A DNA stretch of 64,000 bases from the NCBI GenBank assembly GCA_038961845.1, contig CP152408.1:558001-622000 (forward strand). The letters are read 5' to 3'. Positions 3,075 through 32,355 of the stretch are shown piece after piece (position 1 is the stretch's first letter; the number at the start of each line of letters is the position of its first letter). Below the pieces are notes generated by a model, which saw only the letters and a program-made list of their open reading frames with translations, had not been told where the DNA came from and made no database searches. The stretch comes from Xylophilus sp. GW821-FHT01B05. GTDB lineage: Bacteria > Pseudomonadota > Gammaproteobacteria > Burkholderiales > Burkholderiaceae_C. The position numbers and the translations under genes are program-made.

Positions 3075-3833
3075 GTGCCGAAACCCACTACGCCCACTGC
3101 CACCTTGCCCGCCGAGCCCGCGCGGCGCTCCCGCGCGGAAGACGTCCATGCGCTGCTCAAGCGCGACATGGCCGAGTTCCGCCTGGTGCCGGGCGACCGC
3201 TTCACCGAGGGCGAGATCAGCGAGCGCCTGGGCGTGTCGCGCACGCCGGTGCGCCAGGCGCTGTTCCGCCTGCAGCAAGAGGGCTTTGTCGAGGTGCTGT
3301 TTCGCAGCGGCTGGCGCGTGCTGCCGATCGACTTCCAGCAGTTCGAGCAGCTCTATGACCTGCGCATGGTGCTGGAGACCGAGGCCGTGCGCCGCCTGTG
3401 CTCTGGTGCGCTGCGCATGGAACGCACCCAGTTCGACGCGCTGGCCGGCATCTGGCTGGTGGCGCCCGAGGCACGCAGCAGCGACATGGTGCAGGTCGGC
3501 CGCTGGGACGAGGAATTCCACTGCGCCCTGGTCGCCGCCACCGGCAACGCCGAGATGGCCCGGGTGCACAGCGACGTGACCGACCGCATCCGCATCATCC
3601 GGCGCCTGGATTTCACCTGGGCCGCGCGCATAGAGGCCACCTACGAAGAGCACGGCCAGATCCTGCGCGCCGTGCAGGCCCAGCGCGGCGAAGAGGCGGC
3701 CCGCCTGCTCAGCGCCCACATAGGCGCCAGCCAGGCCGAGGTGCGCAAGATCACGCTGCACCAGATCTACATGGCGCGGAATGCGGGGCGGGAAGCCGCG
3801 GATTTACCGGCGCTCAGCCCTACGAGCGTGTGA
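3075..3833 (+). CDS. GntR-family regulator (FCD domain)
   Basis: A 252-residue FadR-subfamily regulator. The winged helix-turn-helix spans residues ~20-90 (GDRFTEGEISERLGVSRTPV), followed by an all-helical FCD effector domain with the metal-binding pattern residues in FHCAL and EHGQIL. It starts with GTG 14 bp after the HpxZ-like gene and probably controls the upstream importer and amidohydrolase genes; co-localised GntR/FCD regulators often sense a pathway acid or ureide. The final ~20 residues (after IYMARNAGREAAD) run into the 3' end of the opposing ccdB gene, overlapping it by 14 bp. This tail may therefore be foreign read-through created when the accessory DNA arrived. Confidence 0.85.
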   Translation: MPKPTTPTATLPAEPARRSRAEDVHALLKRDMAEFRLVPGDRFTEGEISERLGVSRTPVRQALFRLQQEGFVEVLFRSGWRVLPIDFQQFEQLYDLRMVLETEAVRRLCSGALRMERTQFDALAGIWLVAPEARSSDMVQVGRWDEEFHCALVAATGNAEMARVHSDVTDRIRIIRRLDFTWAARIEATYEEHGQILRAVQAQRGEEAARLLSAHIGASQAEVRKITLHQIYMARNAGREAADLPALSPTSV

Positions 3834-4143
3834 GCAGTTCGTCCAGGCCATCGGCAATGGCCTGCCCCTGCTCTGCCAGCGATCCCACAAGCTCGCCCAA
3901 TTGATCCAGAGCCACCGAGACCATGTCCAGTGGATGCAGGACCACCTGCACACCGTCGATGGCAAATACGGGGTTCATCCTGGAGCCTGCGATGGAAGAG
4001 TTGCGAGGAAGCAAGTCCAGACGCATCAGCGGGACGACCATTCGTCTGCGGTAGCGGTCGAATTGTTGGGACTGGACAAGCACGACGAAGGGAATGGAAT
4101 CGCGCAGGGGCCCTTTGTTGCGATGGACGTCGAACTGCGCCAT
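3820..4143 (-). CDS. ccdB: CcdB-family toxin
   Basis: A 107-residue protein matching CcdB along its length: MAQFDVHRNKG at the N-terminus, VLVQSQQFDRYRRRMVVPL corresponding to the VDVQSD...RMVIPL strand of the F-plasmid toxin, NPVFAIDG, then LVGSLAEQGQAIADGLDELL at the C-terminal helix that contacts gyrase. CcdB poisons DNA gyrase by trapping the cleavage complex. It ends with three residues other than the canonical Trp-Gly-Ile tail (TRS), so toxicity is uncertain. It is preceded on the same strand by a truncated ccdA, whose last codon abuts the ccdB start. The gene lies tail to tail with the GntR gene and marks the edge of the accessory region. Confidence 0.85.
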   Translation of the reverse strand: MAQFDVHRNKGPLRDSIPFVVLVQSQQFDRYRRRMVVPLMRLDLLPRNSSIAGSRMNPVFAIDGVQVVLHPLDMVSVALDQLGELVGSLAEQGQAIADGLDELLTRS

Positions 4144-4286
4144 TACAAAGTGGAGTGTTCGTCTGCGAACGAACCGATGGACGCGTGCACGGCGTTCCAG
4201 TCAGCGGCACAGGCGTCCGCTGCTTGCTGGCGATGACGCTGCGCGCTTTGCTGCGCGGCGACAAACTCGGTCAGAAGCGACTCCAT
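4143..4286 (-). pseudogene. ccdA: CcdA antitoxin, C-terminal part (5' truncated)
   Basis: From the first ATG only 47 residues remain: MESLLTEFVAAQQ, a helical QQ/RH-rich stretch, then DWNAVHASIGSFADEHSTL. The last part is the CcdB-binding tail typical of chromosomal CcdA proteins. The N-terminal ribbon-helix-helix DNA-binding domain (about 30-40 residues) is missing; upstream in frame the sequence becomes unrelated (residues equivalent to RETRFHASSPL) and then meets the stop of an xth remnant at 4328. A GTG-initiated version up to 4331 is possible but would not restore the DNA-binding domain. It may still neutralise CcdB, as the toxin-binding tail is intact, but autoregulation of the operon should be lost. 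Confidence 0.7.
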
Positions 4287-4327
4287 GAGGGGCGACGAGG
4301 CGTGAAATCTTGTTTCCCGGGCACAGA

Positions 4328-4450
4328 TCACAGCGTGAAGTCGTACTCCACCGTCACCGGTGCGTGATCAGAGAACTTCACGTCCTTGTAGATGTGCTCG
4401 CTGCGCGCCAGCGCGGCGGTGGCTGGCGTTGCCAGGTGGTAGTCAATACG
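4328..4450 (-). pseudogene. xth 3'-end remnant A
   Basis: Read on the minus strand, this encodes the last ~42 codons of exodeoxyribonuclease III, including DYHLATPATAALARS, YKDVKFSDHAPVT and the terminal YDFTL before TGA. The catalytic Asp-His of the KFSDHAP motif is present but the rest of the gene is absent: homology stops near GTAGTCAAT, after which a short stretch shared with remnant B follows (ACAAAA...ATGGATCGGG, to about 4474). The intact xth gene lies at 15586-16401 with a clearly diverged C-terminus. Remnant A and remnant B (7797-7916) are direct repeats of each other and bound the first cargo module. Confidence 0.88.
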
Positions 4451-4756
4451 ACAAAAAACCTACACATGGATCGGGGCGCCGCTGGCGCGTCAAGACGACG
4501 GCGACCGGCCAATTGCGCGCGGGCGACGCTTGGCCCTGAACGACTGCTTCAGAATGATCTCGGTCAGTCATAAGAACCTATTCAAAGACAGCTTTGCGAT
4601 TCTTGCGGAAGGTCGAATTGCTTCGAAGCGCAAGTCGGAACAGACCGACTTGCGCGGTTCGGCGGCAACGGAATGCGAGTTAAGGCGATTCGCTATGGCT
4701 TGGGGATAGGTTCGCTTTCCGCCGAATGCTCTCGACCTTGAGCATCTTCGTGGAGC
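4451..4756. other. Intergenic segment at the left edge of module A
   Basis: About 300 bp with no convincing gene. The first ~25 bp continue the similarity to the sequence next to remnant B. The rest is low-complexity, mixed-composition DNA with decayed-looking fragments such as CTGAACGACTGCTTCAG, which resembles CGAACGACCGCTTCAGG near 7990. No transposase or integrase fragment was recognised on either strand, and no clear terminator for the TetR gene is seen. Confidence 0.5.
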
Positions 4757-5398
4757 CTACGTGCCAAACGCCGCCATGAAGACCCGTACGGCCTCGCGCA
4801 GAAGGGACTTATTCTCACGAGAGTCCGGCATCTCGAGCTTCAGCAGTCCACGCATGTGTCCTGAGCCCATGAACATCGACAGGAACAGGTCCGCTGCTTG
4901 GCGCGGATGGCGTACTTTCAGCGTGCCCGCCGCGTGGGCGAGCCGCAGGTAGTCCGCTAGCTCGTTGGTCACACGCTCCGGGCCCTCCTTGTAGAGCCCA
5001 CGGCACACATCTGGTTGTGCACCTGCGACGCCGTAGACGGAGCGCAATGCGCCCAAGGCGTCCTCCCCACGCGACAGTGCGAGAAACCGCGCGCCGACCG
5101 CGAGGAGGACCTGCTCAGGCTGATCCGGATCCAGCGCCCCCGCCTCCGAGACTCCCGCCATCACCGCCACCGTCTTGTCGCGCACGACGGCATGAAACAA
5201 CCCTTCCTTGGAGCCGAAGTGGCTGTACACGGTCATCTTGGATACACCGGCGTCCGCTGCGATGGCATCCACGCTGGCACGCTCTAGGCCATGCTCGTTG
5301 AAGTGCTTTTGCGCGGCTTCCAGGATGCGCCTGCCGCGCTCGGGATCGCGCGGTCGCCCGCGCTGTGGCTTGGGATCGATAACGGGCAGGCTGTTCAT
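4757..5398 (-). CDS. TetR-family regulator
   Basis: A 213-residue regulator. The N-terminal helix-turn-helix covers residues ~22-66, with RILEAAQKHFNEHG, ASVDAIAADAGVSKMTVYSH and FGSKEGLF being the classic TetR pattern. The C-terminal helical domain (DALGALRSV..., RQAADLFLSMFMG) resembles the AefR-like C-terminal domain. The ATG at 5398 is chosen because it begins just before the RGRPRDPERG segment, although the frame is open further upstream. It is divergent from the methyltransferase gene; the intervening ~110 bp carry a candidate operator, so it probably represses itself and the methyltransferase/flavoprotein pair. Confidence 0.88.
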   Translation of the reverse strand: MNSLPVIDPKPQRGRPRDPERGRRILEAAQKHFNEHGLERASVDAIAADAGVSKMTVYSHFGSKEGLFHAVVRDKTVAVMAGVSEAGALDPDQPEQVLLAVGARFLALSRGEDALGALRSVYGVAGAQPDVCRGLYKEGPERVTNELADYLRLAHAAGTLKVRHPRQAADLFLSMFMGSGHMRGLLKLEMPDSRENKSLLREAVRVFMAAFGT

Positions 5399-5415
5399 GG
5401 ATGCTTTTAATGTAC

Positions 5416-5460
5416 TTGACAGTTTAATATATCTAATGCACATTAGTGGACTTGTAAGTA
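5416..5460. promoter_or_regulatory. Divergent promoter/operator region, TetR-methyltransferase
   Basis: This AT-rich stretch is unlike its surroundings. It contains TTGACA (5416-5421) reading toward the methyltransferase, AATATA (5425-5430) which reads as TATATT toward tetR, and an inverted repeat CTAATG-CA-CATTAG (5433-5446). The inverted repeat sits where a TetR dimer would block both promoters. The -10 for the plus-strand promoter is weak, so exact promoter positions are tentative. Confidence 0.5.
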
Positions 5461-5511
5461 CAGCAAATGAAATCCGCCTTGGCAGAAGCTGATCAACACA
5501 AGGAAACCACG

Positions 5512-6402
5512 ATGGCACCGCAAAACGCCCGTCAGATTGCCGACTGGAATGGACCCAGTGGGGAGCGTTGGATCGTCAATCAGGCTCGGCTCGATGCCAT
5601 GTTGGCGGTGTTTGGCAAGGCCGCGATCGAAGCCGCCGCGCCCGTGGTGGGCGAGCGCGTGCTGGATGTCGGCTGCGGCGCAGGCACGTCGAGTTTTGCG
5701 CTGGCCACCCTCGTTGGCGCGGGAGGGCGGGTGCTGGGTGTGGACGTCTCCGCCCCGCTGATCGCACGAGCGCGCGCGCTGGCGCCACCGGATGCAACAG
5801 CCCAATTTCAGGTGGCCGATGCCAGCAGCGCTGAGCTGCCCGATGGCGCGTTCGACCTCCTGTTCTCGCGTTTTGGGGTGATGTTTTTCGACGATCCGAC
5901 AGGGGCGTTCGCTCGTCTGCGCCGGGCGCTCAGGCCCGGTGGCCGGGTCGCTTTCGTTTGCTGGCGCAGCGCGGCCGAGAACGGGTGGGCGCGCCTTCCA
6001 ATGGAGGCGATCGAGGGCCTCGTCCCCTCGGCCGTCCCGCCCGTCGCCGAAGCACCCGGCCCGTTTTCCTTCGGCGATCAAGGACGGGTGGCGCGCATTC
6101 TGACGACGGCCGGGTTCGCCGAGATTGCGCTGGCGCCCTTGGACGCTTCCATCCCTTTCGGCCAAGGCGAGACGCGGGACGCGGCGATTGACGATGGGGT
6201 GCAGTTAGCGATCGACGCAGGCCCCTTGGCGCGCGTGCTCGCGGAACAGCCCAACGACGTCCGTGCCCGGGCTACGGCCGCTGTCCGCACCGCCTTTGCA
6301 GCCCTTCCCGTTGGACGGTCCGTGATGACCGACGGCGCGGCGTGGGTCGTCACGGCGCGCAACCCCCTCCATCCGTCACAAGGAGACCATCCCCATGGAT
6401 GA
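5512..6402 (+). CDS. SAM-dependent class I methyltransferase
   Basis: A 296-residue protein. The SAM-binding motif I is VLDVGCGAGTS (50-60), followed by the acidic strand-2 end GVDVSAP, motif FQVADASSAELP and the post-motif LRPGGRVAFVCW. The N-terminus NARQIADWNGPSGERW is typical of UbiE/COQ5-like small-molecule methyltransferases. The ATG at 5512 is preceded by AAGGAA; an ATG at 5467 is in frame but lacks a good ribosome site. The gene faces away from tetR and its stop overlaps a decayed copy of the start of the next gene. Acceptor (O, N, C or S) cannot be read from sequence; pairing with a CPYC flavoprotein makes a thiol acceptor attractive. Confidence 0.85.
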   Translation: MAPQNARQIADWNGPSGERWIVNQARLDAMLAVFGKAAIEAAAPVVGERVLDVGCGAGTSSFALATLVGAGGRVLGVDVSAPLIARARALAPPDATAQFQVADASSAELPDGAFDLLFSRFGVMFFDDPTGAFARLRRALRPGGRVAFVCWRSAAENGWARLPMEAIEGLVPSAVPPVAEAPGPFSFGDQGRVARILTTAGFAEIALAPLDASIPFGQGETRDAAIDDGVQLAIDAGPLARVLAEQPNDVRARATAAVRTAFAALPVGRSVMTDGAAWVVTARNPLHPSQGDHPHG

Positions 6403-6463
6403 CGTCCTCATCATCTGCTGCAGCTTTGCCGGCCTGGTCGCCGCCGGCGGCTTCGAGCCGTAG
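6395..6463 (+). pseudogene. Degenerate duplicate of the start of the downstream flavoprotein gene
   Basis: A 22-codon frame beginning MDDVLIICCSFAGLVAA and ending at TAG. It parallels MNDVIIIGGSFAGLAAA at 6591, with both glycines of the FAD-binding GxxF turn changed to Cys. The similarity ends after about 17 codons. It overlaps the end of the methyltransferase gene. It looks like a remnant of a tandem duplication or of an earlier copy of the same gene deleted by recombination. Confidence 0.65.
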
Positions 6464-6590
6464 GGAGACTTCTGTGCAACGACGATCCCTGCTGTCGCTG
6501 GCCGCGCTCTCCACCATCGGCCTAGCTCACGCACAACCAACCGCCAAGCCCTTCCCCTCGCCAGTCTTTCACAACCCGGAGCCCATCACC

Positions 6591-7484
6591 ATGAACGACG
6601 TCATCATCATCGGCGGCAGCTTTGCCGGCCTCGCCGCCGCCCTGCAACTCGGCCGTGCCCGCCGCACCGTCACCGTGCTCGATACCGGCCGGCCGCGCAA
6701 CCGCTTTGCCGGCCACTCGCATGGCTTGCTCGGCCACGATCACAAGCCACCGCTGGACATCCTGGCCGAGGCGCGGCAGCAGCTGGCGCGCTATCCAACG
6801 ATCAGGCTGGTCAATGCCCGGGCCGAGAGCGTCTCCGGCGCCATCGACGATTTCTGCGTCGTCACTGACGATCACGAAAGCCTCGGGGCGCGCCGCGTGA
6901 TCCTGAGCTACGGCGTTGCCGACCAGATGCCTGAGGTTCCAGGCTTTGCCGAAAGCTGGGGCACGTCCATCGTGCCCTGCCCCTATTGCGACGGCTTTGA
7001 AGTCGCCGACCGGCATTGGGGCCTCGTCTGGTCCGGCCCGCAATCGCACAATCAGGCCAAGCTGTTCCGCGATTGGACCGACAAGTTGACTGTCTTCGCC
7101 GATGGTCACGACATCCCGCCCGATATCCAGGCCGATCTGGCGCGCCGCAACATACCTGTCATCGATGGCCGGATCGTCGAGATCGCCCATCACAAGGGCC
7201 ATATCTCCACAGTCAATCTCGATACCGGCCGCAAGGTCGCGGTCGACGTCCTGTTCGCCCAGCCGCGCAACAAGCCGTCCGCAACCCTGCATGAAGCGCT
7301 GGGCCTCGCCACAATGGACACGCCTACCGGCATCGTCCTCAAGGTCGACGAGCGCCGCGTCACCAGCATGCCCGGCATCTACGCCGCCGGTGACCTCACG
7401 ACGCCTTTCCTGCCATCGGTCACCCAAGCATCCTCACAGGGTGCGATGGCGGGCATCTTCGCCCAACAGTCAATGCTGGTTTGA
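6591..7484 (+). CDS. CPYC flavoprotein, thioredoxin reductase-like (possible dithiol oxidase)
   Basis: A 297-residue FAD protein with the GGSFAG dinucleotide turn (8-13), a redox-active CPYC pair (130-133) and a C-terminal FAD motif in YAAGDLTTPF. At the second nucleotide-binding site, thioredoxin reductases have a Gly-rich GGGxSA turn and an HRRxxxR motif; here the region reads LVWSGPQSHNQAKLF and neither is evident. The same combination (CPYC, degenerate NADPH site, length near 300) describes dithiol oxidases such as HlmI, GliT and DepH, which form or protect disulfides in holomycin, gliotoxin and romidepsin producers. The frame is open upstream to a GTG at 6474 with a signal-peptide-like start (RRSLLSLAALSTIGLAHAQ); the ATG at 6591 fits the family start best. 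Confidence 0.82.
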   Translation: MNDVIIIGGSFAGLAAALQLGRARRTVTVLDTGRPRNRFAGHSHGLLGHDHKPPLDILAEARQQLARYPTIRLVNARAESVSGAIDDFCVVTDDHESLGARRVILSYGVADQMPEVPGFAESWGTSIVPCPYCDGFEVADRHWGLVWSGPQSHNQAKLFRDWTDKLTVFADGHDIPPDIQADLARRNIPVIDGRIVEIAHHKGHISTVNLDTGRKVAVDVLFAQPRNKPSATLHEALGLATMDTPTGIVLKVDERRVTSMPGIYAAGDLTTPFLPSVTQASSQGAMAGIFAQQSMLV

Positions 7485-7796
7485 AAGACACGACCTCAAT
7501 AACCAACGCAATGCTCATGAACCACCGCGCAGCCTCTTCCATTGCTGCACGGTGGTCAACCGCTGAGTCGTATTGCACGGTTCCCCCGACCGCCCGCCGA
7601 CCGCGAAACCTTTCTTTGCAGCGCTCCGTTGTGATGGGCAGCATCTGGCGATCGCTGCAGTGGAGAACGACCGACCCTGGCAGAAAGCGGTCTTGAAAGT
7701 CGAGTCCTCGAATGAGGGCAATAGCTGCAAAGCGGACCTTCAATCTTAGGCACCGGAAGACTCATTGAGCCCAAAGCGGACCTGACCCACGTCTGA
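7485..7796. other. Intergenic segment between module A and xth remnant B
   Basis: About 310 bp without a supported gene. It includes several copies of an AAAGCGGACC-like word (near 7733 and 7775) and GAACGACCGACC (near 7665). Similar words recur at 7969-8025 and just after the flavodoxin gene (15500-15545), so they may be shared debris from the ends of the inserted modules. No transposase or integrase fragment was recognised. Confidence 0.45.
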
Positions 7797-7916
7797 TCAA
7801 AGGTCGAAGTCGTAGTCGATGGTCACCGGCGCGTGATCAGAGAACTTCACATCCTTGTAGATGTGCTCGCTGCGCGCCAGCGCGGCGGTAGCTGGCGTTG
7901 CCAGGTGGTAGTCAAT
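7797..7916 (-). pseudogene. xth 3'-end remnant B
   Basis: Minus-strand coding remnant of exodeoxyribonuclease III: DYHLATPATAALARS, YKDVKFSDHAPVT and the terminal YDFDL before TGA. It differs from remnant A at only a few bases over the ~90 bp from 4358 to 4448, but its last few codons and the TGATCAAAGGT(C/A)GAAGTCGTA start are shared with the intact gene at 15586 instead. Homology ends at the same place as in remnant A (GTAGTCAAT), followed by the shared ATGGATCGGG stretch. It separates module A from module B. Confidence 0.88.
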
Positions 7917-8027
7917 CGCACAAAACACCCGCAAATGGATCGGGTGTCAGGCAACTGTGGTCAGCAGAAGCGGACGTTCAATGCTGGGAGGCGAACGACC
8001 GCTTCAGGCTGGGAGCGGACCTCGTCC

Positions 8028-8996
8028 TCACACCTTCTTGGCTGAGCGTTTGGGCGCTGGATTGCTGCGCAAGTCCTTTGGTCCAAGGACGTACTCGCAG
8101 GTCTTGCCCAGCCGCTGAAGCGCCAGGTCGATGAACGCTCGCGCCCGCGCCGGTTGCGACGATCTGCTGCCGTAGTAGACGAAGTAGCTGGCGTAGTTGG
8201 GCATGTGCTCGACCAGGACCGGCACCAACTGCCCCGAACGGATGTAAGGCGCCGCCGTCACGCCGGCGAGTTGCCCCAGCACACGTCCGGCAAGAACGGC
8301 CTGAAGCTCGAACAGCTCGTCGTTGCTGCAGATGGCCGGCACCACGGGCTGGTCCGCCGGCTCGTCGTCAATCCTCACGCGCCAGGGCAAAACTTTCCCG
8401 GTGCTCGGGTGTCGGTAGGCACTACATTGGTGTGCAGCTAGGTCCCCCAGCGTCAGCGGCACACCGTGTCGCTGGAAGTACGAAGGCGCACCGCAGATGG
8501 GCAACTGCACCGGAAACAGTCGGCGTGCGATGACGCCCTCGTGGGGCGACGGGCCGAGACGGAATCCGACATCCACCCGGTCCTCGACCCAGTTCCCGAT
8601 GCGGTCATCCAGCAGCACGTCGGGCTGGATGCCTGGATGCAGGTCGCAGAACTCCTCGACGAGCCTCCACAGGATCGGCTGGAACGTCGTGCGCGGACCA
8701 GTGATGCGCAGCGGCCCGGCGAATTCGTCCTTCGCCGATTTCGCCGTCTGAAGCGCCCGCTGCATGCCCAGTAGCGACGGGTGGACGTCCTCGAACAGCC
8801 GCTGGCCGGCATCGGTCAGCGACATCACCCGGGTCGTGCGATGGAACAGACGGGCATCCAGATGGGCTTCAAGCTGGGCCAGGGCCTTGCTTGCTGCCTG
8901 CGGACTGATGCCAAGCGCCAGTGCCGCCTTGCGCAGGCTCCCCAGCTCTGCGGCCTTGATGAAGGTCGTGATGGAGCGTAGCTCGTTGATGGCCAT
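8028..8996 (-). CDS. LysR-family regulator of module B
   Basis: A 322-residue LTTR. The N-terminal winged helix (residues ~1-60) includes ELRSITTFIKAAELGSLRKA and ISPQAASKALAQLEAHL; the substrate-binding domain follows with the CrgA/DmlR-type pattern (DVGFRLGPSPHEGVIARRL). The ATG at 8996 is preceded by AAGGAGAG. It is divergent from the aldo/keto reductase gene across ~125 bp and is probably the activator or repressor of the downstream operon. The C-terminal tail is lysine/arginine-rich (PKRSAKKV) and ends very close to xth remnant B, consistent with it marking the edge of the module. Confidence 0.9.
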   Translation of the reverse strand: MAINELRSITTFIKAAELGSLRKAALALGISPQAASKALAQLEAHLDARLFHRTTRVMSLTDAGQRLFEDVHPSLLGMQRALQTAKSAKDEFAGPLRITGPRTTFQPILWRLVEEFCDLHPGIQPDVLLDDRIGNWVEDRVDVGFRLGPSPHEGVIARRLFPVQLPICGAPSYFQRHGVPLTLGDLAAHQCSAYRHPSTGKVLPWRVRIDDEPADQPVVPAICSNDELFELQAVLAGRVLGQLAGVTAAPYIRSGQLVPVLVEHMPNYASYFVYYGSRSSQPARARAFIDLALQRLGKTCEYVLGPKDLRSNPAPKRSAKKV

Positions 8997-9973
<977 letters not shown>

Positions 9974-9981
9974 ACGACACC

Positions 9982-11409
9982 ATGAGCATCGCCGTACCGA
10001 GCCCGTCGCCGCGCAACGCGGCTGCGATCCTGGCCATCATCGTGGCCAGCTACCTGATGATCGTGGTGGACATCTCCATCGTCATCACCGGCCTGCCGCG
10101 CATCCAGAGCAGCCTGGGCTTTTCCGCCGCGCAGCTCTCCTGGGTCACCAACGCCTACACCCTGAGCTTCGGCGGCTTGCTGCTACTGGGCGCGCGGGCC
10201 GGGGACATCCTTGGCCGCAAGCGCATGCTCATCCTCGGGCTGGCGGTGTTCACGCTGGCCTCGGTGGTGATCGGGTTCGCGCCGTCCGTGAACTGGCTGC
10301 TGGCGTCACGCGCCATCCAGGGCGCCGGCGCCGCGGTGCTGGCGCCGTCGACGCTGGCCTTGCTCTCCACCCACTTCGCCGAAGGTCCGGAGCGCACCCG
10401 TGCGCTGTCCCTCTATGCGGCCGCGGCAGGCGTGGGTGCGACCTTGGGCCTGGTGTTGGGCGGCTTCTTCGCCGACCTGGTCTCCTGGCGGGCCGGGTTC
10501 TTCATCAACCTGCCCATCGGCCTGCTGCTCATCGCCGCCGCGCGCCGGCACATCGACGAAACGCCACGACACCCGGGCCGCTTCGACATCGGCGGCGCCA
10601 TCACCTCCACCCTGGGGATGACGGCGCTGGTCTACGGACTGGTGCGAGCGGCCGACGCCGGTTGGGGCGACCGGCTCGCCCTGGCCGCGCTGGTCAGTGG
10701 GGTGGCCCTGATCGGCGTCTTCGTCGTGATCGAGCGCAGCGTCAGCCAACCCATATTGCCCTTGCGCCTGCTGGCCAACCGGGAACGGACCGCGGCCAAT
10801 CTGGCGCGCATGCTCTTCCTGGGCGGCGCGGTCGGCTTCTGGTTCTTCTCCACGCAGTTCCTGCAGGGGGTGCTTCACCTGCGTCCGATCCAGGCCGGAC
10901 TGGCCTTCCTGCCGGTCACGCTGCCCAACTTCGCTTCGGCGATGGCGGTGCCCAGGCTGGCCCGCCGGTTCGGGAACGAGGCGCTGCTGACAGCCGGACT
11001 CCTGCTTGGTGTGGTCGGTCTGGCCTGGCTCGGCCAAGCCGGTGTCGACTCCACATACTGGACCGGTGTTGCCCTGCCGATGATTCTCATCGGCCTCGGA
11101 CAGGGCTTGCTCCTGGCCCCGCTCACCGCCGCCGGCGTGGCCGGGGTCGCCCAGAAGGATGCGGGCGCGGCCTCGGGGCTGGTCAACGTGGCGCATCAAC
11201 TCGGTAGCGCCTTGGGCCTCGGTCTCCTGGTGCTGGTGTTCGCGAATGCCGCGCCCGAAACGACCCATGACGCCGCAGGTCTCGCACTTCGAATCTCAGC
11301 CGTCATGGACGTGGCCGCAGTGCTGGTAGGCCTGGCGCTGATCGCCGTCCTGTTCTTCATCGTCGTGCCGCGCCATCGGCGGGCTCGACGTCTGGAGGTC
11401 CTCTCATGA
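9982..11409 (+). CDS. MFS exporter, DHA2 (EmrB/QacA) type
   Basis: A 475-residue membrane protein with about 14 hydrophobic segments. Motif A appears as GARAGDILGRKRM between helices 2 and 3, and motif C-like glycines occur in GVGATLGLVLGGFF, marking a drug:H+ antiporter. An SYLMIVVDISIVITGLP first helix is typical of the DHA2 group. The ATG at 9982 lies 8 bp after the reductase stop; a 13-residue upstream extension is open but lies inside the reductase gene. The stop overlaps the next ATG by 4 bp. In context it probably exports the compound, or a product, handled by the neighbouring enzymes. Confidence 0.9.
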   Translation: MSIAVPSPSPRNAAAILAIIVASYLMIVVDISIVITGLPRIQSSLGFSAAQLSWVTNAYTLSFGGLLLLGARAGDILGRKRMLILGLAVFTLASVVIGFAPSVNWLLASRAIQGAGAAVLAPSTLALLSTHFAEGPERTRALSLYAAAAGVGATLGLVLGGFFADLVSWRAGFFINLPIGLLLIAAARRHIDETPRHPGRFDIGGAITSTLGMTALVYGLVRAADAGWGDRLALAALVSGVALIGVFVVIERSVSQPILPLRLLANRERTAANLARMLFLGGAVGFWFFSTQFLQGVLHLRPIQAGLAFLPVTLPNFASAMAVPRLARRFGNEALLTAGLLLGVVGLAWLGQAGVDSTYWTGVALPMILIGLGQGLLLAPLTAAGVAGVAQKDAGAASGLVNVAHQLGSALGLGLLVLVFANAAPETTHDAAGLALRISAVMDVAAVLVGLALIAVLFFIVVPRHRRARRLEVLS

Positions 11410-12602
11410 AATCACTCCTTCTCGTCGCGCTCGGCGGCGCGGCGGCGGCCAGCGCGGCGCCGCTTCCCGAGGCCGAGGCCGTCCGAGGCGTCGTCGAGGT
11501 CCGATCCGCCGCCTCGCAGCGCGTCATGGCCAGCCCCGCCGAGAACTTCACCGGTACCGTGCGCGTCAGCTCTCCCTTCCAGGCGGTGTCTCCGGGCACG
11601 GCGGGAGGTGCCACGGTGACGTTCTCCGCTGCTGCCCGGACGGCGTGGCACACCCACCCGCTGGGTCAGACGCTGATCGTGGTGGAAGGGCTGGGGCTGG
11701 TGCAGCAGCAAGGGCAGCCCGCGCACGTCATCCGACCCGGCGACATCGTGACCATCCCTCCCCACGTGCGTCATTGGCATGGTGCGGGTCCTTCCGGTCC
11801 CATGGTCCATCTGGCCATCGCGGAAAAGGAGAATGGCTCCGCGGTGACCTGGCAGGACAAGGTCACCGAGCAGGACTATCGCGCCGCGTTGGCCGGGGCG
11901 GGACTGTCTGTCTCGGACGTTCCGCAGGCAACGAGCGCCAAGGCCGCTCCGCCTCGCTCCGAGACCTTGACCGCCAAGCAGCGCGCCATCGTCCTGACCG
12001 GTGCCTTCATGGCCACCAGCGACATGCCGCGTCTCAATGCCGCGTTGAACCAGGGCCTCGGTGACGGGCTCACGATCAGCGAGGCCAAGGAAGTCCTGGT
12101 GCAGCTCTACGCCTACGCGGGCTTCCCCAGAAGCCTGAACGCGCTGGGCGAGCTTCTGAAGGTGGTGGACCTTCGCAAGCAGCAAGGCATGCAGGACGTC
12201 CTGGGGCGCGAGCCCAGTCGTCCAGTCGCCACCGGCGATGCACTGGTGGCCGCGGGCCAGACGAACCAGACCGAGATTTCAGGTGGGCCCGTCCAGGGGC
12301 CGGTCTTCGAGTTTGCACCCGTCATCAACCAGTTCCTGCAGTCCCATCTGTTCGGCGACATCTTCGAGCGCGACAACCTCGACTGGCAGAGCCGCGAGCT
12401 GGCCACGGTGGGCGCGCTGGCCGCCACACCTGGTGCGCAGGCTCAGCTCCGGTCGCACATGCGCGCCAGCCTGCGCGTCGGCCTGACCGCACAGCAGTTG
12501 AAGCAGCTCGTTCGCGCGCTCGCTGAACACGTCGGTCCGCAAGAGGCCGCCAGGGCCAATGAAGCACTCGAGCAGGCCATCAGCGCCGCAATGAAAGGTT
12601 GA
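11406..12602 (+). CDS. Exported cupin-carboxymuconolactone decarboxylase-like fusion protein
   Basis: A 398-residue protein. A short signal peptide (MKSLLLVALGGAAAASAAP) is followed by a cupin (about 50-140) with metal ligands in WHTHPLGQ and PHVRHWHGA. Two helical carboxymuconolactone decarboxylase-like domains follow (about 185-265 and 300-395), each with the pattern of the AhpD/CMD fold (LYAYAGFPRSLNAL; ELATVGALAATPG). Neither has the CxxC pair of AhpD, so peroxide reduction via that site is unlikely. The start overlaps the MFS stop (ATGA), implying translational coupling. The fusion suggests a metal-dependent ring or enol chemistry in the periplasm, but no substrate can be assigned. Confidence 0.83.
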   Translation: MKSLLLVALGGAAAASAAPLPEAEAVRGVVEVRSAASQRVMASPAENFTGTVRVSSPFQAVSPGTAGGATVTFSAAARTAWHTHPLGQTLIVVEGLGLVQQQGQPAHVIRPGDIVTIPPHVRHWHGAGPSGPMVHLAIAEKENGSAVTWQDKVTEQDYRAALAGAGLSVSDVPQATSAKAAPPRSETLTAKQRAIVLTGAFMATSDMPRLNAALNQGLGDGLTISEAKEVLVQLYAYAGFPRSLNALGELLKVVDLRKQQGMQDVLGREPSRPVATGDALVAAGQTNQTEISGGPVQGPVFEFAPVINQFLQSHLFGDIFERDNLDWQSRELATVGALAATPGAQAQLRSHMRASLRVGLTAQQLKQLVRALAEHVGPQEAARANEALEQAISAAMKG

Positions 12603-12605
12603 TTC

Positions 12606-13682
12606 ATGAACGTCCCTCGATACCTGTGCGTCGGAACCCTGGCGATGGCGGCGCTGCTGGGCGGCTGTGCCTCGCAGCCAGGCGGCGGCACGGTGCCCCT
12701 GGTCATCCAGAGTCAGGGCAGCTTCACCGTGGGTGGCACCGTGAAGACGACGCCTGGCAGCTACGACAACAACAAGCCGACGTCGGCGGGCCAGAGCTTC
12801 CACGGCGACCACCTCTACGCCTTCTATCAGGTGCCGCAGCACCCGAAACCGCTGCCCATCGTCATGCTGCACGGAGCATTCCAGTCGGCCCGCAGCTGGG
12901 AGACGACGGCGGACGGTCGTGAAGGTTTCCAGACCATCTTCCTGCGCCGCGGCTTCCCGGTGTACCTCGTCGACCAGCCTCGCCGCGGGCGAGCGGGCAA
13001 CAGCACCATCGCGACAACGACGGAGCCAACGCCGAACGACCAGCTTTTCTTCGACCAGTTCCGGCTCGGCAAGTGGCCCGGCTACTTCAGCAATGTCCAG
13101 TTCGCCCGCGATCCCGAGACGCTGAACCAGTTCCTGCGCTCGGTCACGCCCAACACCGGGCCCTACGACGCGGGTGTCATCTCCGAGGCCATGGCCGCGC
13201 TCTTCGCGAAGGTGGGACCGGCAATCCTGTTCACGCACTCGCAGGGCGGCGGTCCGGGCTGGCTGACGGCCATCAGGAGCCCGAACGTGAAGGCGGTCGT
13301 CGCCTTCGAGCCGGGCAGCGGATTCATCTTCCCGGAGGGCGAGTTGCCGCCCGCCATGCCCAGCACCGCGGGCACGCTTGCGCCCGAAGCCGTGTCCGCC
13401 GCAGACTTCCAGAAGCTCACCCGCATTCCCATCGTGATCTTCTACGGCGACAACTTCCCGACCGAGCCGACGACGGAGCGCGGCCAGGACAACTGGCGCG
13501 TGCGGCTGGCCATGGCTCGTCTCTGGGTGGAGGCCGTGAACCGGCATGGCGGTGACGCCCGGCTGGTGCATCTCCCCGACATCGGCGTGCGCGGCAACAC
13601 GCATTTCCTCATGTCCGACCTGAACAACGTGCAGATCGCCGACCTGGTGACCGCCTTTTTGGTCCAGAAGAAGCTGGACTGA
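12606..13682 (+). CDS. Alpha/beta hydrolase, lipoprotein
   Basis: A 358-residue protein with a lipoprotein signal: hydrophobic core, then the lipobox LGGC at residues ~18-21, so it should be membrane-anchored on the periplasmic side. The hydrolase core has an oxyanion turn MLHGAFQSARSWE, the arginine-rich VDQPRRGRAGNS loop, and a nucleophile elbow reading THSQGGG with Ser as likely nucleophile. The acid and histidine are plausible in FYGDNFP and GVRGNTHFLMSD. It starts 3 bp after the preceding gene. Probably an esterase or lactonase; substrate unknown. Confidence 0.85.
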   Translation: MNVPRYLCVGTLAMAALLGGCASQPGGGTVPLVIQSQGSFTVGGTVKTTPGSYDNNKPTSAGQSFHGDHLYAFYQVPQHPKPLPIVMLHGAFQSARSWETTADGREGFQTIFLRRGFPVYLVDQPRRGRAGNSTIATTTEPTPNDQLFFDQFRLGKWPGYFSNVQFARDPETLNQFLRSVTPNTGPYDAGVISEAMAALFAKVGPAILFTHSQGGGPGWLTAIRSPNVKAVVAFEPGSGFIFPEGELPPAMPSTAGTLAPEAVSAADFQKLTRIPIVIFYGDNFPTEPTTERGQDNWRVRLAMARLWVEAVNRHGGDARLVHLPDIGVRGNTHFLMSDLNNVQIADLVTAFLVQKKLD

Positions 13683-13722
13683 CCTCCGACATCGACATCG
13701 ACCGACAGCGAGCGACACCCCA

Positions 13723-14823
13723 ATGACCCATGACGCCATCGACATGAAGCGCCGCGAGTTCCTCGGCACTTCCGCTCTCGCCATTTCCGCAGCCACCCTT
13801 GGAGTTTCAGCGATGACCGTGCCCACCCCCGCCGCAGCCGCCGATTACCGGAACAACCCGTTCACCCTGGTGTACGGAGATGCCATCACCGCCAACGCGC
13901 CCGGCAAAGTCCACATCCACTCGATGACCTACAAGCTCAACGGCCTGGACATCGTCGCCAACGTCTACACGCCGGCGAATTTCGACCCGGCCAAGAAGTA
14001 TGCCGCGGTCGTCGTCGCGCACCCCAACGGCGGCGTGAAGGAACAGACGGCCGGCCTGTACGCGCAGCGGCTGGCGGAACGCGGCTACGTCGCCATCGCG
14101 GCCGATGCGGCCTACCAAGGCGGGAGCGGTGGCTTGCCTCGCTCGGTGGACACGCCGACGAACCGCATCGAGGACATCCACGGCATGGCGGACTTCATCA
14201 CCCGCTGGGCCGGGGTGGATGCCGCGCGACTCGGCCTGCTCGGCATCTGCGGGGGCGGGGGCTATTCGCTCGCTGCAGCGAAGACCGACAAGCGCTTCAA
14301 GGCGGTGGCGACACTCAGCATGTTCAACTCCGGCCGCGTCCGTCGCAACGGCTTCGCTGACTCTCAGCTGGCCACGATCCAGCAGCGCATGAAGCAGGCC
14401 TCGGACGCGCGCGCTCAGCAGGTGGCCGGCGGCAAGATTCTCTACTCGGGCGATGCCGACATGACGGACGCGCAGATCGCCGCGCTGCCGTTCGAGATGT
14501 ACCGGCAAGGCTACGAGTATTACTGGCGCACGCATGCGCATCCGGGCTCGACCTTCAAGTACACCACCAGCAGCTTGCTGGACCTGATGCGCTGGGACGC
14601 CACGGACCAGCTCGAGTTGATCGAACAACCGCTGCTCATGATCGCCGGCAGCAAGGCGGACAGCCTGTACATGACCGAGGCGGCGTTCCTCAAGGCGACG
14701 GGCGCGAAGGGCAAGGAGCTGTTCCTCATCGAAGGCGCCACGCACATCGAGACCTACTGGGTCCCGAAGTACGTCGACGCGGTTGTGGCCAAGTTGACGC
14801 CGTTCTACGCGAAGAACGTCTGA
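13723..14823 (+). CDS. Alpha/beta hydrolase (dienelactone hydrolase-like) with Tat signal
   Basis: A 366-residue protein with a twin-arginine leader (MKRREFLGTSALAISAATLG) from residue 8, pointing to folded export. The ATG at 13723 adds seven residues; the ATG at 13744, directly before KRREF, may be the true start. The fold is a peptidase_S9/DLH-type hydrolase; the nucleophile elbow is GICGGGGYS, so cysteine occupies the nucleophile position as in dienelactone hydrolases. The acid is likely in AGSKADSL and the base in EGATHIETYW. It is the third exported enzyme in a row in this operon. Confidence 0.85.
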   Translation: MTHDAIDMKRREFLGTSALAISAATLGVSAMTVPTPAAAADYRNNPFTLVYGDAITANAPGKVHIHSMTYKLNGLDIVANVYTPANFDPAKKYAAVVVAHPNGGVKEQTAGLYAQRLAERGYVAIAADAAYQGGSGGLPRSVDTPTNRIEDIHGMADFITRWAGVDAARLGLLGICGGGGYSLAAAKTDKRFKAVATLSMFNSGRVRRNGFADSQLATIQQRMKQASDARAQQVAGGKILYSGDADMTDAQIAALPFEMYRQGYEYYWRTHAHPGSTFKYTTSSLLDLMRWDATDQLELIEQPLLMIAGSKADSLYMTEAAFLKATGAKGKELFLIEGATHIETYWVPKYVDAVVAKLTPFYAKNV

Positions 14824-14897
14824 TCCTTCGGGTCGGCATTCGGTGACCGGGCCAACCAAGCACGGGCCGGTCCAGGGGCTGCATCAAGGAGCATCAG

Positions 14898-15491
14898 ATG
14901 AAAGACAGTGCAGACTCGGTTCGTCGCGTCTTGATGGCGGCCATGACCACCCTCCCGTTGACCGCGAGCGCGGCGGCGACGGAACGGCGGGACGGTAGGC
15001 GCTCAGGAAGAACGTCGTCGCTGGTCGTCTACTTCTCGAGGTCTGGCAACACCCGTGTCGTTGCGGGGCTGCTTCAGCGGTCGCTCGGAGCCGACCTCTT
15101 CGAGATGCAGCCCGAGGTCCCTTATCCCGAGGACTACCTGGCCACTGTCGAAGAGGCTCGCCAGGAGCGCGACAACGGTCGCGCGAGGGCATTGGCGCGC
15201 TCGGTTCCCGACATTGCAAGGTACGACACGATCTACCTCGGCTTTCCCATCTGGGGCGAGACCGCGCCACCGGTGATCCGTGGATTCCTGTCGAGCCACG
15301 ACCTGTCAGGCAAGGACCTGATCCCGTTCATCACGCATGGCGGCTACGGCCTTGGAAACAGCTTGACCCTGCTCGCGCAGGGCGCCTCTCGGGCGCGGTT
15401 GCAGCCGGCGTTCTCCACGGAGGCGGATCAGGAGCGCCGGACGATGAATCAGGTCAACGACTGGCTGAAGTCGGCTCGAAGAAAGGGCTAG
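14898..15491 (+). CDS. Flavodoxin-family protein with export signal
   Basis: A 197-residue protein. Residues ~46-190 form a flavodoxin: the phosphate-binding loop VVYFSRSGNTR, GFPIWGETAPP for the first isoalloxazine loop, and FITHGGYGLGNS for the second. About 45 residues precede it and look like a signal sequence with twin arginines (SVRRVLMAAMTTLPLTASAAA). FMN proteins are normally cytoplasmic, so a Tat-type leader implies export of the folded holoprotein. The start ATG follows AAGGAGC. It is the last gene of module B; the next 95 bp are AGCGGAC-rich debris leading to the xth stop. Confidence 0.85.
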   Translation: MKDSADSVRRVLMAAMTTLPLTASAAATERRDGRRSGRTSSLVVYFSRSGNTRVVAGLLQRSLGADLFEMQPEVPYPEDYLATVEEARQERDNGRARALARSVPDIARYDTIYLGFPIWGETAPPVIRGFLSSHDLSGKDLIPFITHGGYGLGNSLTLLAQGASRARLQPAFSTEADQERRTMNQVNDWLKSARRKG

Positions 15492-15585
15492 AGCGCCGTC
15501 GGTGTCCGCTTTCGCGGCACAGCGGACGGTGAACGAAGCTTTTACAAACCGCCGCTTTACGCCTAAAGCTGACCGAGCCTATTGA

Positions 15586-16401
15586 TCAAAGGTAGAAGTC
15601 GTACTCGATGGTAAGAGGTGCGTGGTCGCTGAACTTGATGTCCTTGTAGACGGCAGCGATACGGGCGGTTGCTGCAACGGAAGGAGTCGCCAACTGATAG
15701 TCCAGTCGCCAGCCCACGTTCTTGGCATAGGCCTGGCCGCGGTTGCTCCACCAGGTGTAGGCGGTGTCGGTGGCGTCGGGCTGGAGCTGACGGTAAACGT
15801 CCACCAGGCCGCCCTCTGCGTCCGTCAGGTGCAACACTTTTGTCATCCAGGCGCGTTCTTCGGGCAGGAAACCGCTGTTTTTCTGGTTGCTCTTCCAGTT
15901 TTTCAGATCGATCTGCTGGTGCGCGATGTTGATGTCGCCGCACAAAATGAACTCGCGCTCGGCCTTGAGCCGCATCAGATGCGGGTGAAAGCCCGCCAGG
16001 AAGCGGAACTTGGCCGCCTGCCGCTCCTCGCCCGAGGAGCCGCTGGGGAAGTAGCAGCTAATCAGCGAGAACTTGCGCTGCGGCGTGTCAAAGCGCACCT
16101 CGACATAGCGGCCTTCGGCGTCGAACTCCTCCGAGCCGTAGCCGATCAGCACCTCGCTGGGCTCGTGCTTGGTATAGACGCCGACGCCCGAATAGCCCTT
16201 CTTCTGTGCGAAGTGGAAGTGCCCCTGCAGGCCGGCCAACTGCTCGAATCTGCCCTGCACGTCGGCCGCCTGGGCCTTGATCTCTTGCACGCAAATACAA
16301 TCCGGCTGCCATGCCGCGATCCATTCTTCTACGCCCTTGCTGGCGGCGGAACGGATGCCGTTGAGGTTCAGGCTGGTCAATTTGAACAAGGATTTCCCCA
16401 T
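15586..16401 (-). CDS. xth: Exodeoxyribonuclease III
   Basis: A 271-residue Xth/ExoA-family AP endonuclease and 3'-5' exonuclease in base excision repair. The metal and catalytic residues are visible: Asn in SLNLNGIRSA, Glu in CVQEIKAQ, Asp-Asn in LCGDINIAHQ, and Asp-His in KFSDHAPLT. The C-terminus (DYQLATPSVAATARIAA..., ending DFYL) differs from that of the two remnants at 4328 and 7797, as expected if the end of the gene was supplied by inserted DNA. The ATG at 16401 overlaps the pyrE ATG by 2 bp on the opposite strand; a TTG at 16389 (followed by FKLTSLNLNG) preceded by GGGGA would match the family start better. Confidence 0.93.
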   Translation of the reverse strand: MGKSLFKLTSLNLNGIRSAASKGVEEWIAAWQPDCICVQEIKAQAADVQGRFEQLAGLQGHFHFAQKKGYSGVGVYTKHEPSEVLIGYGSEEFDAEGRYVEVRFDTPQRKFSLISCYFPSGSSGEERQAAKFRFLAGFHPHLMRLKAEREFILCGDINIAHQQIDLKNWKSNQKNSGFLPEERAWMTKVLHLTDAEGGLVDVYRQLQPDATDTAYTWWSNRGQAYAKNVGWRLDYQLATPSVAATARIAAVYKDIKFSDHAPLTIEYDFYL

Positions 16402-31452: not shown

Positions 31453-32355
31453 ATGGCAACGCTCCCCTACGGCCCCGACCCGCAAAGCCTGCGCGCCTTT
31501 GTCGCCGTGGCGCGCGAGGGCAATGTCACGCGCGCCGCGCAGCAGCTGCACTTGTCGCAGCCGGCGGTCAGCCTGCAGTTGAAGGCGCTGGCCACGCGCA
31601 CCGGCCTGGTTCTGTTCAGCCGCACGCCGCAGGGCCTGGCGCTGACGGCCGACGGCGCGGCGCTGCTGCCGCAGGCCGAGCGCGCGCTGGCCGCGCTGAC
31701 CGACTTCGACCACAACGCCGGCCAACTGCGCGGCACGGCGCGCGGCAGCTTGCGCATAGGCACCATCCTGGACCCGGAATTCACCCGCCTGGGCGCCTTC
31801 CTGCGCGAGCTGCTCGAGGCCGCGCCGCAGATCGACACCGACCTGCGCCAGGCTATGAGCGGCGACCACCTGCCCGCGCTTGCCAGCGGCGCGCTGGATG
31901 GCGCCTTCTACCTCGGCGAGCTGCCCGCGCCGCCGCCGGCCGACATCCTGCTGCGCCCGCTGGTGCGCTTCACCTACCGCGTGCTGGCACCGGCCGGCTG
32001 GGGCCCGCAGGTGCTGGGCCGGCAGTGGAAGGCGCTGGCCGCATTGCCCTGGCTGGGCACGCCGCCAGAATCCGTGCACCACCGCCTGCTGGCCGGCGTG
32101 TTCGGCCCGCTGGGCGTGGAGCCGCGCCGCGTCGCCCGGGTCGATCAAGAGGCGTCCATGCTCGATCTGGTGCGATCCGGCGTGGGCCTATCGCTGGTGC
32201 GCGATGCCATCGCCATCCGCGAAAGCCAGGCGCGCGGGCTGGTGGTGGCAGACCGGGTGTCGCTGGCCTGCACGCTGGGCTTTGCCAGTTTGCGCACGCG
32301 GCAGGCCGAGCCGGCGCTGGCTGCAGCGTTGGCGGCGCTGCAGCGCGTGTGGTGA
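31453..32355 (+). CDS. LysR-family regulator
   Basis: A 300-residue LTTR with the helix-turn-helix in LRAFVAVAREGNVTRAAQQ and LSQPAVSLQLKALATR. The effector domain follows with GSLRIGTILDPEFTRLG. It is divergent from the M20 peptidase and GMC genes, which are its likely targets. ATG 31453 is chosen; the open frame extends to a TTG at 31411. Confidence 0.88.
   Translation: MATLPYGPDPQSLRAFVAVAREGNVTRAAQQLHLSQPAVSLQLKALATRTGLVLFSRTPQGLALTADGAALLPQAERALAALTDFDHNAGQLRGTARGSLRIGTILDPEFTRLGAFLRELLEAAPQIDTDLRQAMSGDHLPALASGALDGAFYLGELPAPPPADILLRPLVRFTYRVLAPAGWGPQVLGRQWKALAALPWLGTPPESVHHRLLAGVFGPLGVEPRRVARVDQEASMLDLVRSGVGLSLVRDAIAIRESQARGLVVADRVSLACTLGFASLRTRQAEPALAAALAALQRVW

Follow-up and report, generated by a model that had tools for sequence, protein, structure and literature searches.

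Two integrase-free gene modules behind xth in Xylophilus probably derive from elements of a large serine recombinase

In the genome of Xylophilus sp. GW821-FHT01B05, two blocks of accessory genes lie in series behind xth, the gene of exonuclease III. They are contained in a stretch of 64,000 nucleotides of contig CP152408.1 (positions 558,001 to 622,000), called here the window, to which the coordinates below refer unless another locus is named. The two cargo blocks most likely come from mobile elements of a large serine integrase that cuts at one point. We consider it highly probable that a family of integrative elements with large serine recombinases (LSRs) uses xth as its chromosomal attachment site, and that the window holds two integrase-less derivatives in series. 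The parts of xth and the element ends in the window are as follows.

15586-16401, minus strand: intact xth (exonuclease III, PF03372), chimeric, native as far as the TA
15698-15699, minus strand: TA crossover point in the intact xth; change-point 0 bp from the TA, interval -11 to +3 bp
15586-15697, minus strand: foreign replacement 3' end of xth, with the FSDHAP motif retained and without the common native target CTACCACCTGGC
7911-7936, minus strand: P half-site of the inner element (attR-B), ATTTGCGGGTGTTTTGTGCGATTGAC; outer border approximate, from 14 aligned right ends and the attP dyad in four relatives
7797-7910, minus strand: displaced xth 3' end B, stop codon 7797-7799, ending at the TA 7909-7910; 85% identical to the xth 3' end of genome G004
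4442-4466, minus strand: P half-site of the outer element (attR-A), TGTGTAGGTTTTTTGTCGTATTGAC; outer border approximate
4328-4441, minus strand: displaced xth 3' end A, stop codon 4328-4330, ending at the TA 4440-4441; 90% identical to the xth 3' end of G004

An earlier note, made from the sequence alone, had reported two minus-strand remnants of the xth C-terminus and an intact xth with a different C-terminus. Both remnants and the chimeric gene are real: alignment and a repeat search bear out their positions. In the repeat search, the two remnants share 88% identity over 150 bp and the end of the intact gene aligns at 60%. Compared with xth of G004, the nearest relative, the intact gene is 93% identical in the 300 bp preceding the TA and 65% in its 3' part, with the switch from native to foreign at the TA. 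Both remnants stop at one place, a TA within the codons for DY/HLATP, and have a common non-xth motif just upstream of it. The note was right about a common cut-off point, but its 'GTAGTCAAT' overshoots the true break by 6 bp: the six bases GTCAAT, which it counted with xth, are foreign half-site already. The junction pattern GNTNTTTNGNNNNANNNNCTAYCAYCTGGC has exactly two matches in the window, against none expected (100 shuffles). As the note had also remarked, the 11 kb hold no visible integrase, transposase or tRNA: Pfam gave no integrase or transposase match in the 16 proteins of the region (15 open reading frames, ORFs, and the intact xth), and the sole tRNA of the window is at 32294. No relaxase, the gene expected of a mobilizable element (IME), was found among the window proteins scanned with Pfam; MobA/MobL occurs in one relative's element, that of Paracidovorax wautersii.

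A recombinase stands at the same point of xth in four relatives. We call these loci type ii; they consist of a truncated xth, an LSR gene, cargo, a complete foreign xth carried by the element (xth'), 38 bp to about 1 kb of further DNA, the P half-site and a displaced end. In all four genomes (a Curvibacter metagenome-assembled genome, Acidovorax soli, Acidovorax sp. BS750m-G8 and Paracidovorax wautersii) xth breaks off at this same TA and the LSR gene comes next; a complete xth' lies beside the window's motif, on a separate contig in two of them. In Curvibacter, the xth upstream of the displaced end is the second, foreign gene, and the native xth, truncated at amino acid 237, lies about 24 kb above it. 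The junction there reads CTGGACTA followed by GTCAATGCGACATAATACC, with the TA at 11860-11861, and an ORF of 541 amino acids starts 33 bp on, at 11895. Its product, the LSR at L388:11895-13517, has Resolvase, Recombinase and zinc-ribbon domains (PF00239, PF07508, PF13408), and the same three are found in the LSR of P. wautersii (L122). Domains were scanned in these two genomes; the other two LSRs (L396 and L397) are known by tblastn only. The LSRs of A. soli, Acidovorax sp. BS750m-G8 and P. wautersii are 53-56% identical to that of Curvibacter.

Among 399 genomes of the family, with three candidates scored per genome, a close LSR occurs only in G390; the remaining 21 matches are 28-49% identical, several of them covering part of the protein only. 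An order-level search yielded 4 of 349 genomes at E<=1e-60, with 36-39% identity. A protein search with the LSR gave 451 matches; among the 120 of them listed, 112 have 47% identity or more, the next standing at 41% and below; solved structures gave no match, and viral contigs no relative. The window genome (G000), which is complete, contains no match to the relatives' LSRs at E<=0.01 (24 of 24 candidates scored) and none to PF07508, a family matched in 3 of 14 control genomes. An autonomous LSR element has a large serine recombinase of its own, which the window modules lack; they are therefore read as derivatives and not as autonomous members, and the agent that made them is deduced from relatives.

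The outer half-sites P and P' of the type-ii elements form an inverted repeat around the TA, like the attP of a serine integrase. P and P' match at 15-18 of the 21 inner positions in all four elements (for A. soli and Acidovorax sp. BS750m-G8 the two halves were taken from different contigs), whereas the B halves of xth match at 6-8 of 21. The 14 aligned right ends, from several genera, have a conserved P half-site, and xth is the insertion target in all 14 genomes that have a P half beside an xth end. As the window motif is such a P half-site, the window junctions are read as attR: the motifs look like attR scars, and the modules like integrase-less derivatives. The TA is the apparent common dinucleotide crossover, both in the four type-ii genomes and as the change-point of five of the ten type-i genes described below. 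With the same TA and foreign half-site in several genera, occupied loci spread over the tree of xth genes, and related LSRs beside a truncated xth in four genomes, site-specific insertion at xth, which the earlier note had put forward as inference, is well supported at the level of sequence. We infer that an LSR was the agent of joining; attP x attB joining by the LSR and excision dependent on a recombination directionality factor are predicted.

Loci of type i have an intact xth, 0.66 to 13 kb of cargo, a P half and a displaced end. They were found in eight genomes of the Genome Taxonomy Database (GTDB), in addition to the two of the window, with no LSR within the fetched stretches. A change-point test was made on ten type-i genes, the window's own gene being excluded from the natives. 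In five of them the sequence is native before and foreign after a point close to the TA (window 0, L117 4, L118 0, L058 3 and L120 -3 bp), and identity drops by 20-33 points from the N- to the C-part, more than in any one of 68 native pairs (771 in the case of L120). The displaced ends are 95% (L117), 83% (L118) and 88% (L058) identical to the native end of the nearest relative; values are lower with distant relatives (L123 77%, L055 69%, L120 67%). A third copy in L055 (14653) looks degenerate and is excluded from the counts. Of the two window remnants, A is closer to native, as would be expected of the oldest junction. Junctions, change-point and relatives support the earlier proposal that DNA entered the 3' part of xth two times in series and each time supplied a replacement end.

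When the GTDB species genomes were scanned for the exact pattern, 18 matches were obtained, 13 at displaced xth ends and five without an adjacent xth. The 13 genomes are all Burkholderiales (Acidovorax, Paracidovorax, Polaromonas, Curvibacter, Ideonella and Comamonadaceae or Burkholderiales genomes). Eight are of type i, with the intact xth upstream on the same contig, four are of type ii, and one (L077) is counted with neither. Phage and plasmid collections contained no such element, and a DNA search of plasmids had no match; viral contigs gave one pattern match, without xth, and nothing in a further search. Matches to the 39-residue xth end in two phage and ten plasmid records were rejected, all being below 60% identity, from other genera, and either annotated as exonuclease III or unannotated.

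We propose the following course of events. An LSR would join attP to xth at the TA inside the codons for ...GWRLDY/HLATP..., which would remove the last ~37 codons of xth, including the FSDHAP motif. A type-ii element would thus truncate xth, set its LSR gene right behind and supply a complete xth' near its far end. A type-i unit would leave a regenerated xth, whose 3' end is foreign from the TA; behind this would come its cargo, a P half-site and, displaced, the 3' end that xth had before. Such a unit may arise by recombination between attL and the xth' site, a deletion discarding the LSR, the first cargo and the N-part of xth', or else by insertion in trans of circles that bear a P half-site and an xth 3' end. 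The sequence would be one of repeated LSR-mediated insertion at xth, followed by loss or absence of the LSR.

Several observations weigh against this course. No LSR remains in the window genome. According to the excerpted text of PMC3783163, canonical serine integrases act on attP x attB pairs alone, so that both routes to type i would be non-standard. In L123, L121, L055, L056 and L119, half of the ten genes tested, there is no change-point at the TA: it falls at -132 in L123, +57 in L121, +24 in L055 (interval -6 to 30) and -260 in L056. L056 also lacks a P half, for which it is excluded from the element tallies, and the comparison of L119 is out of register. The replacement end of L121 is 97% identical to its remnant. 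At remnant B of the window one would have expected the foreign end of the outer element, but that remnant is still native-like (85%). This suggests either that the end supplied by the outer element came from a near relative, as in L121, or that the pair came as a composite. Because the scan pattern requires CTAYCAYCTGGC, remnants found with it are in part bound to show a conserved target; with 2 mismatches allowed, a search of 13 genomes gave one chance match and one reversed-control match. Finally, two of the four type-ii elements, those of A. soli and Acidovorax sp. BS750m-G8, are split over contigs: the part with the truncated xth and LSR and the part with xth' and P half would only presumably make up one element.

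Some of these observations would also fit the alternative raised in the earlier note, recombination between homologous xth ends. Diverged xth genes would have recombined, by transformation or within the genome, leaving partial copies and bringing cargo without a recombinase. In its favour, the intact xth of type-i loci is chimeric; xth' has 64-68% amino-acid identity to the window xth; and the nearly identical ends of L121 and the best change-points of L123 and L056, away from the TA, point the same way. Yet it does not account for a non-xth P half-site common to 14 right ends of several genera, nor for breakpoints that lie within 4 bp of the TA in five genes instead of being spread over the gene, and LSR genes stand at that same TA in four relatives. 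We regard it as improbable.

Slightly less credit still is due to a single insertion in an ancestor of the family that was passed on vertically and had its cargo swapped later through recombination in the flanks. The conserved P half-site and the constant orientation in the loci examined agree with it, but occupied sites are rare. A pattern search of the family finds the junction in 4 of 399 genomes (G000, G390, G347 and G075; reversed control 0 of 399). A DNA search with remnant B in the same genomes, where two candidates were scored per genome and the matches are those listed, retrieves the same junction in other genera. Together with a more divergent junction in G087, a P half stands at xth in 5 of 399 genomes. 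We also surveyed 120 xth loci of the family, namely 20 and a further 100 hand-picked down the ranked list of the remnant-B search. This choice passed over G075 (known to be occupied), loci already included and, without design, G296, G048, G115, G336, G323, G233, G020 and G213; 12 of the 100 are shorter than 12 kb. A second xth 3' end occurs in 4 of the 120, all four preselected for it, and in 0 of the 100 further loci. Occupied genes are scattered over a tree of 131 xth N-parts, type-i genes standing beside native ones in many places, and the displaced ends of the window, L117 and L058 are 85-95% identical to the native ends of relatives.

A tandem duplication in one lineage, producing A and B from one insertion only, is very unlikely: it would explain the similarity of the two remnants, but their P half-sites differ, the two modules carry cargo of different families, and the 3' ends A and B differ mutually and from the end of the intact xth. 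The least credible agent is a tyrosine recombinase (Xer-, IntI- or phage-like) acting in trans, for although the window genome has 11 PF00589 places, none lies beside xth among the matches listed for 15 genomes, no Xer- or IntI-like ORF occurs in the fetched xth stretches (by a profile of 27 integrases, which could miss phage integrases), and attP symmetry around a dinucleotide and the adjacent LSR genes indicate a serine recombinase. The junction had also been considered as a 7-bp tyrosine-type core; this was dropped, with no such integrase at xth in these searches and an LSR found upstream of the second full-length xth.

Within the preferred reading, insertion by an LSR, the element-borne ends of xth are themselves altered at the target. 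We compared 13 replacement ends (nine type-i genes, without L056, and four xth') with 116 native xth genes. The native target CTACCACCTGGC occurs in 78 of the 116 natives but in a single one of the 13 replacement ends (p 4e-5), and base 5 after the TA is C in 106 of 116 and 1 of 13 (p 3e-10; both Fisher, relatedness ignored). The arginine codon left of the TA is AGA in all four xth' (two of them near-identical) and in 0 of 116 natives; elsewhere in xth', arginine is encoded by AGA in only 2 of 64 cases. Of the 399 family genomes, two have AGA-coded sites, one being the Curvibacter xth' and the other an xth'-like copy beside a shortened native xth. Self-recombination would be expected of an element that had attP together with a functional attB, which makes selection for a rescue copy unrecognised by its own integrase a plausible cause: the recoding may shield xth'. 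Common ancestry of the element-borne ends is another possible cause; in the tree, a 16-row clade (100/97) holds all four xth', though not as a single group, together with 12 native genes, and no type-i gene belongs to it. Compared with natives overall, xth' has a lower GC content at third codon positions and fewer CTG codons, which may be behind part of the leucine changes. The recoding weighs somewhat against the deletion route to type i. Tentatively, these loci may represent a natural break-and-rescue element, in which an integrase inactivates a conserved repair gene, a complete and recoded rescue copy travels along that this integrase fails to recognise, the substitute gene or end locks the site, and cargo accumulates integrase-free; we give this somewhat less than an even chance.

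In L428 (9611-10650, genome G094), the native xth by pyrE matches over ~47 residues only, and a complete AGA-coded gene of xth' type adjoins it in opposite orientation, possibly a full replacement of xth by the element-borne copy.

The cargo and flank of the window comprise, by Pfam for the cargo and ccdAB:

7937-15585: inner module cargo
8028-9059, minus strand: LysR regulator (ORF)
9122-9973, plus strand: aldo/keto reductase
9943-11409, plus strand: MFS transporter
11406-12602, plus strand: cupin and CMD domains
12606-13682, plus strand: a/b hydrolase
13723-14823, plus strand: DLH-like protein
14898-15491, plus strand: flavodoxin
4467-7796: outer module cargo
4757-5398, minus strand: TetR regulator
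about 5512-6402, plus strand: S-adenosylmethionine (SAM) methyltransferase
about 6591-7484, plus strand: pyridine-nucleotide-disulphide reductase
4143-4331, minus strand: ccdA, 5'-shortened (PF07362 slightly under cut-off, profile positions 24-68), abutting remnant A on the host side
3820-4143, minus strand: ccdB (PF01845), directly behind the remnant A side, on the host side and outside both modules
3075-3833, plus strand: GntR regulator, 73% identical to the xth neighbour in same-genus G001 (L049)

The first part of the reductase gene has a short second copy just upstream of the gene (6382-6445 against 6578-6641, 86% over 64 bp). Elsewhere in the window genome, G000:C1:2092383-2092985 encodes a tyrosine recombinase with a stretched PF00589 match; it could be an integron-type integrase and has no link to xth.

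The earlier note had looked to strains with an empty site where ccdAB directly follows xth. This was found in part: in L060, of another genus of the family, ccdAB lies ~190 bp behind xth, but at the empty site of same-genus G001 it is the GntR gene that stands ~23 bp behind the xth stop. In the window, that gene lies beyond ccdAB. The window ccdAB is homologous to DNA in L060, L123 and L050. Such genes are found repeatedly close to xth 3' ends, in one case as the cargo of a type-i unit. The window ccdB, a toxin gene, is whole beside the shortened antitoxin gene ccdA, and in L060 and L123 the homologous DNA begins farther from the xth stop.

Strains with other cargo behind xth, also looked for in the note, exist: differently filled sites occur in several genomes. 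Across loci, the cargo includes restriction-modification (R-M) systems, SIR2-STAND, RhuM, ccdAB and metabolic genes.

L117: SIR2-nSTAND
L118: molybdopterin oxidoreductase and extracytoplasmic function (ECF) sigma factor
L119: AAA-M41, DUF2779, WYL, GmrSD_N and PP2C
L120: RhuM
L121: N6-methylases with PLD
L123 (Polaromonas sp. C04): ccdAB, in a 0.66-kb insert; ccdB at 79% identity
Curvibacter: type III R-M with Snf2-, UvrD- and GmrSD_N-type genes; Fic
P. wautersii: MobA/MobL, SMR, TetR

A similar neighbour protein (YHTSGAEGEFEPGS...) is encoded in L122 behind the displaced xth end (12022-12753, with xth on the plus strand) and in L051, 162-806 bp behind xth.

The analysis accounts for an integrase-free accessory region through an integrase located in relatives, and identifies xth as a gene that LSRs probably target repeatedly in Burkholderiales, with attB and attP halves to match. 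A further question posed by the recoded rescue gene is whether integrases that cut conserved genes select immune copies of their targets, as engineered rescue drives do. The four LSRs, with their predicted sites, could be of use for genome engineering in Burkholderiales.

Several known systems share features with the loci described here. Staphylococcal cassette chromosome (SCC) elements target rlmH/orfX, form composite islands and include recombinase-less pseudo-SCC. Shared features are serine recombinases, an insertion point close to the 3' end of a conserved gene, composite islands in tandem and recombinase-less cargo units. The host phylum is another, however, and the target is xth, not rlmH; unlike in SCC, the elements here either displace ~110 bp of coding sequence and put a substitute in its place, or bring an entire second gene. 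Integron cassettes are captured by IntI and have attC sites with the motif GTTRRRY, which the element ends here do not resemble. Cis-mobilizable elements (CIMEs) are left by deletion of integrative elements; they similarly hold cargo between attachment sites without an integrase, mobilisation being only putative in our case. The e14 element at icd is an island that restores its split target gene. In islands of this type, as here, the element supplies a substitute 3' end and a displaced fragment marks the far end. Such islands are the subject of Islander, in the excerpted text of PMC4383910 with tRNA and tmRNA targets of tyrosine integrases. The TIGER/Islander software requires an integrase gene in the island (PMC12424338), and would therefore overlook type-i units and scars like those of the window.

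The closest comparison is with LSR integrative elements that have a conserved chromosomal target gene, surveyed in PMC10083194 as far as its excerpts go. The word 'exodeoxyribonuclease' occurs 0 times in its main text (supplements excluded), and the literature searched, with partial coverage and supplements excluded, yielded no paper naming xth as a target of an LSR or serine integrase. The elements found here are like those in their resolvase/recombinase/zinc-ribbon LSR, two inverted attP halves, dinucleotide crossover and single target gene. They differ in that the target is xth, that the element carries a complete, recoded copy of the target gene, and that integrase-less derivatives outnumber the LSR-bearing ones.

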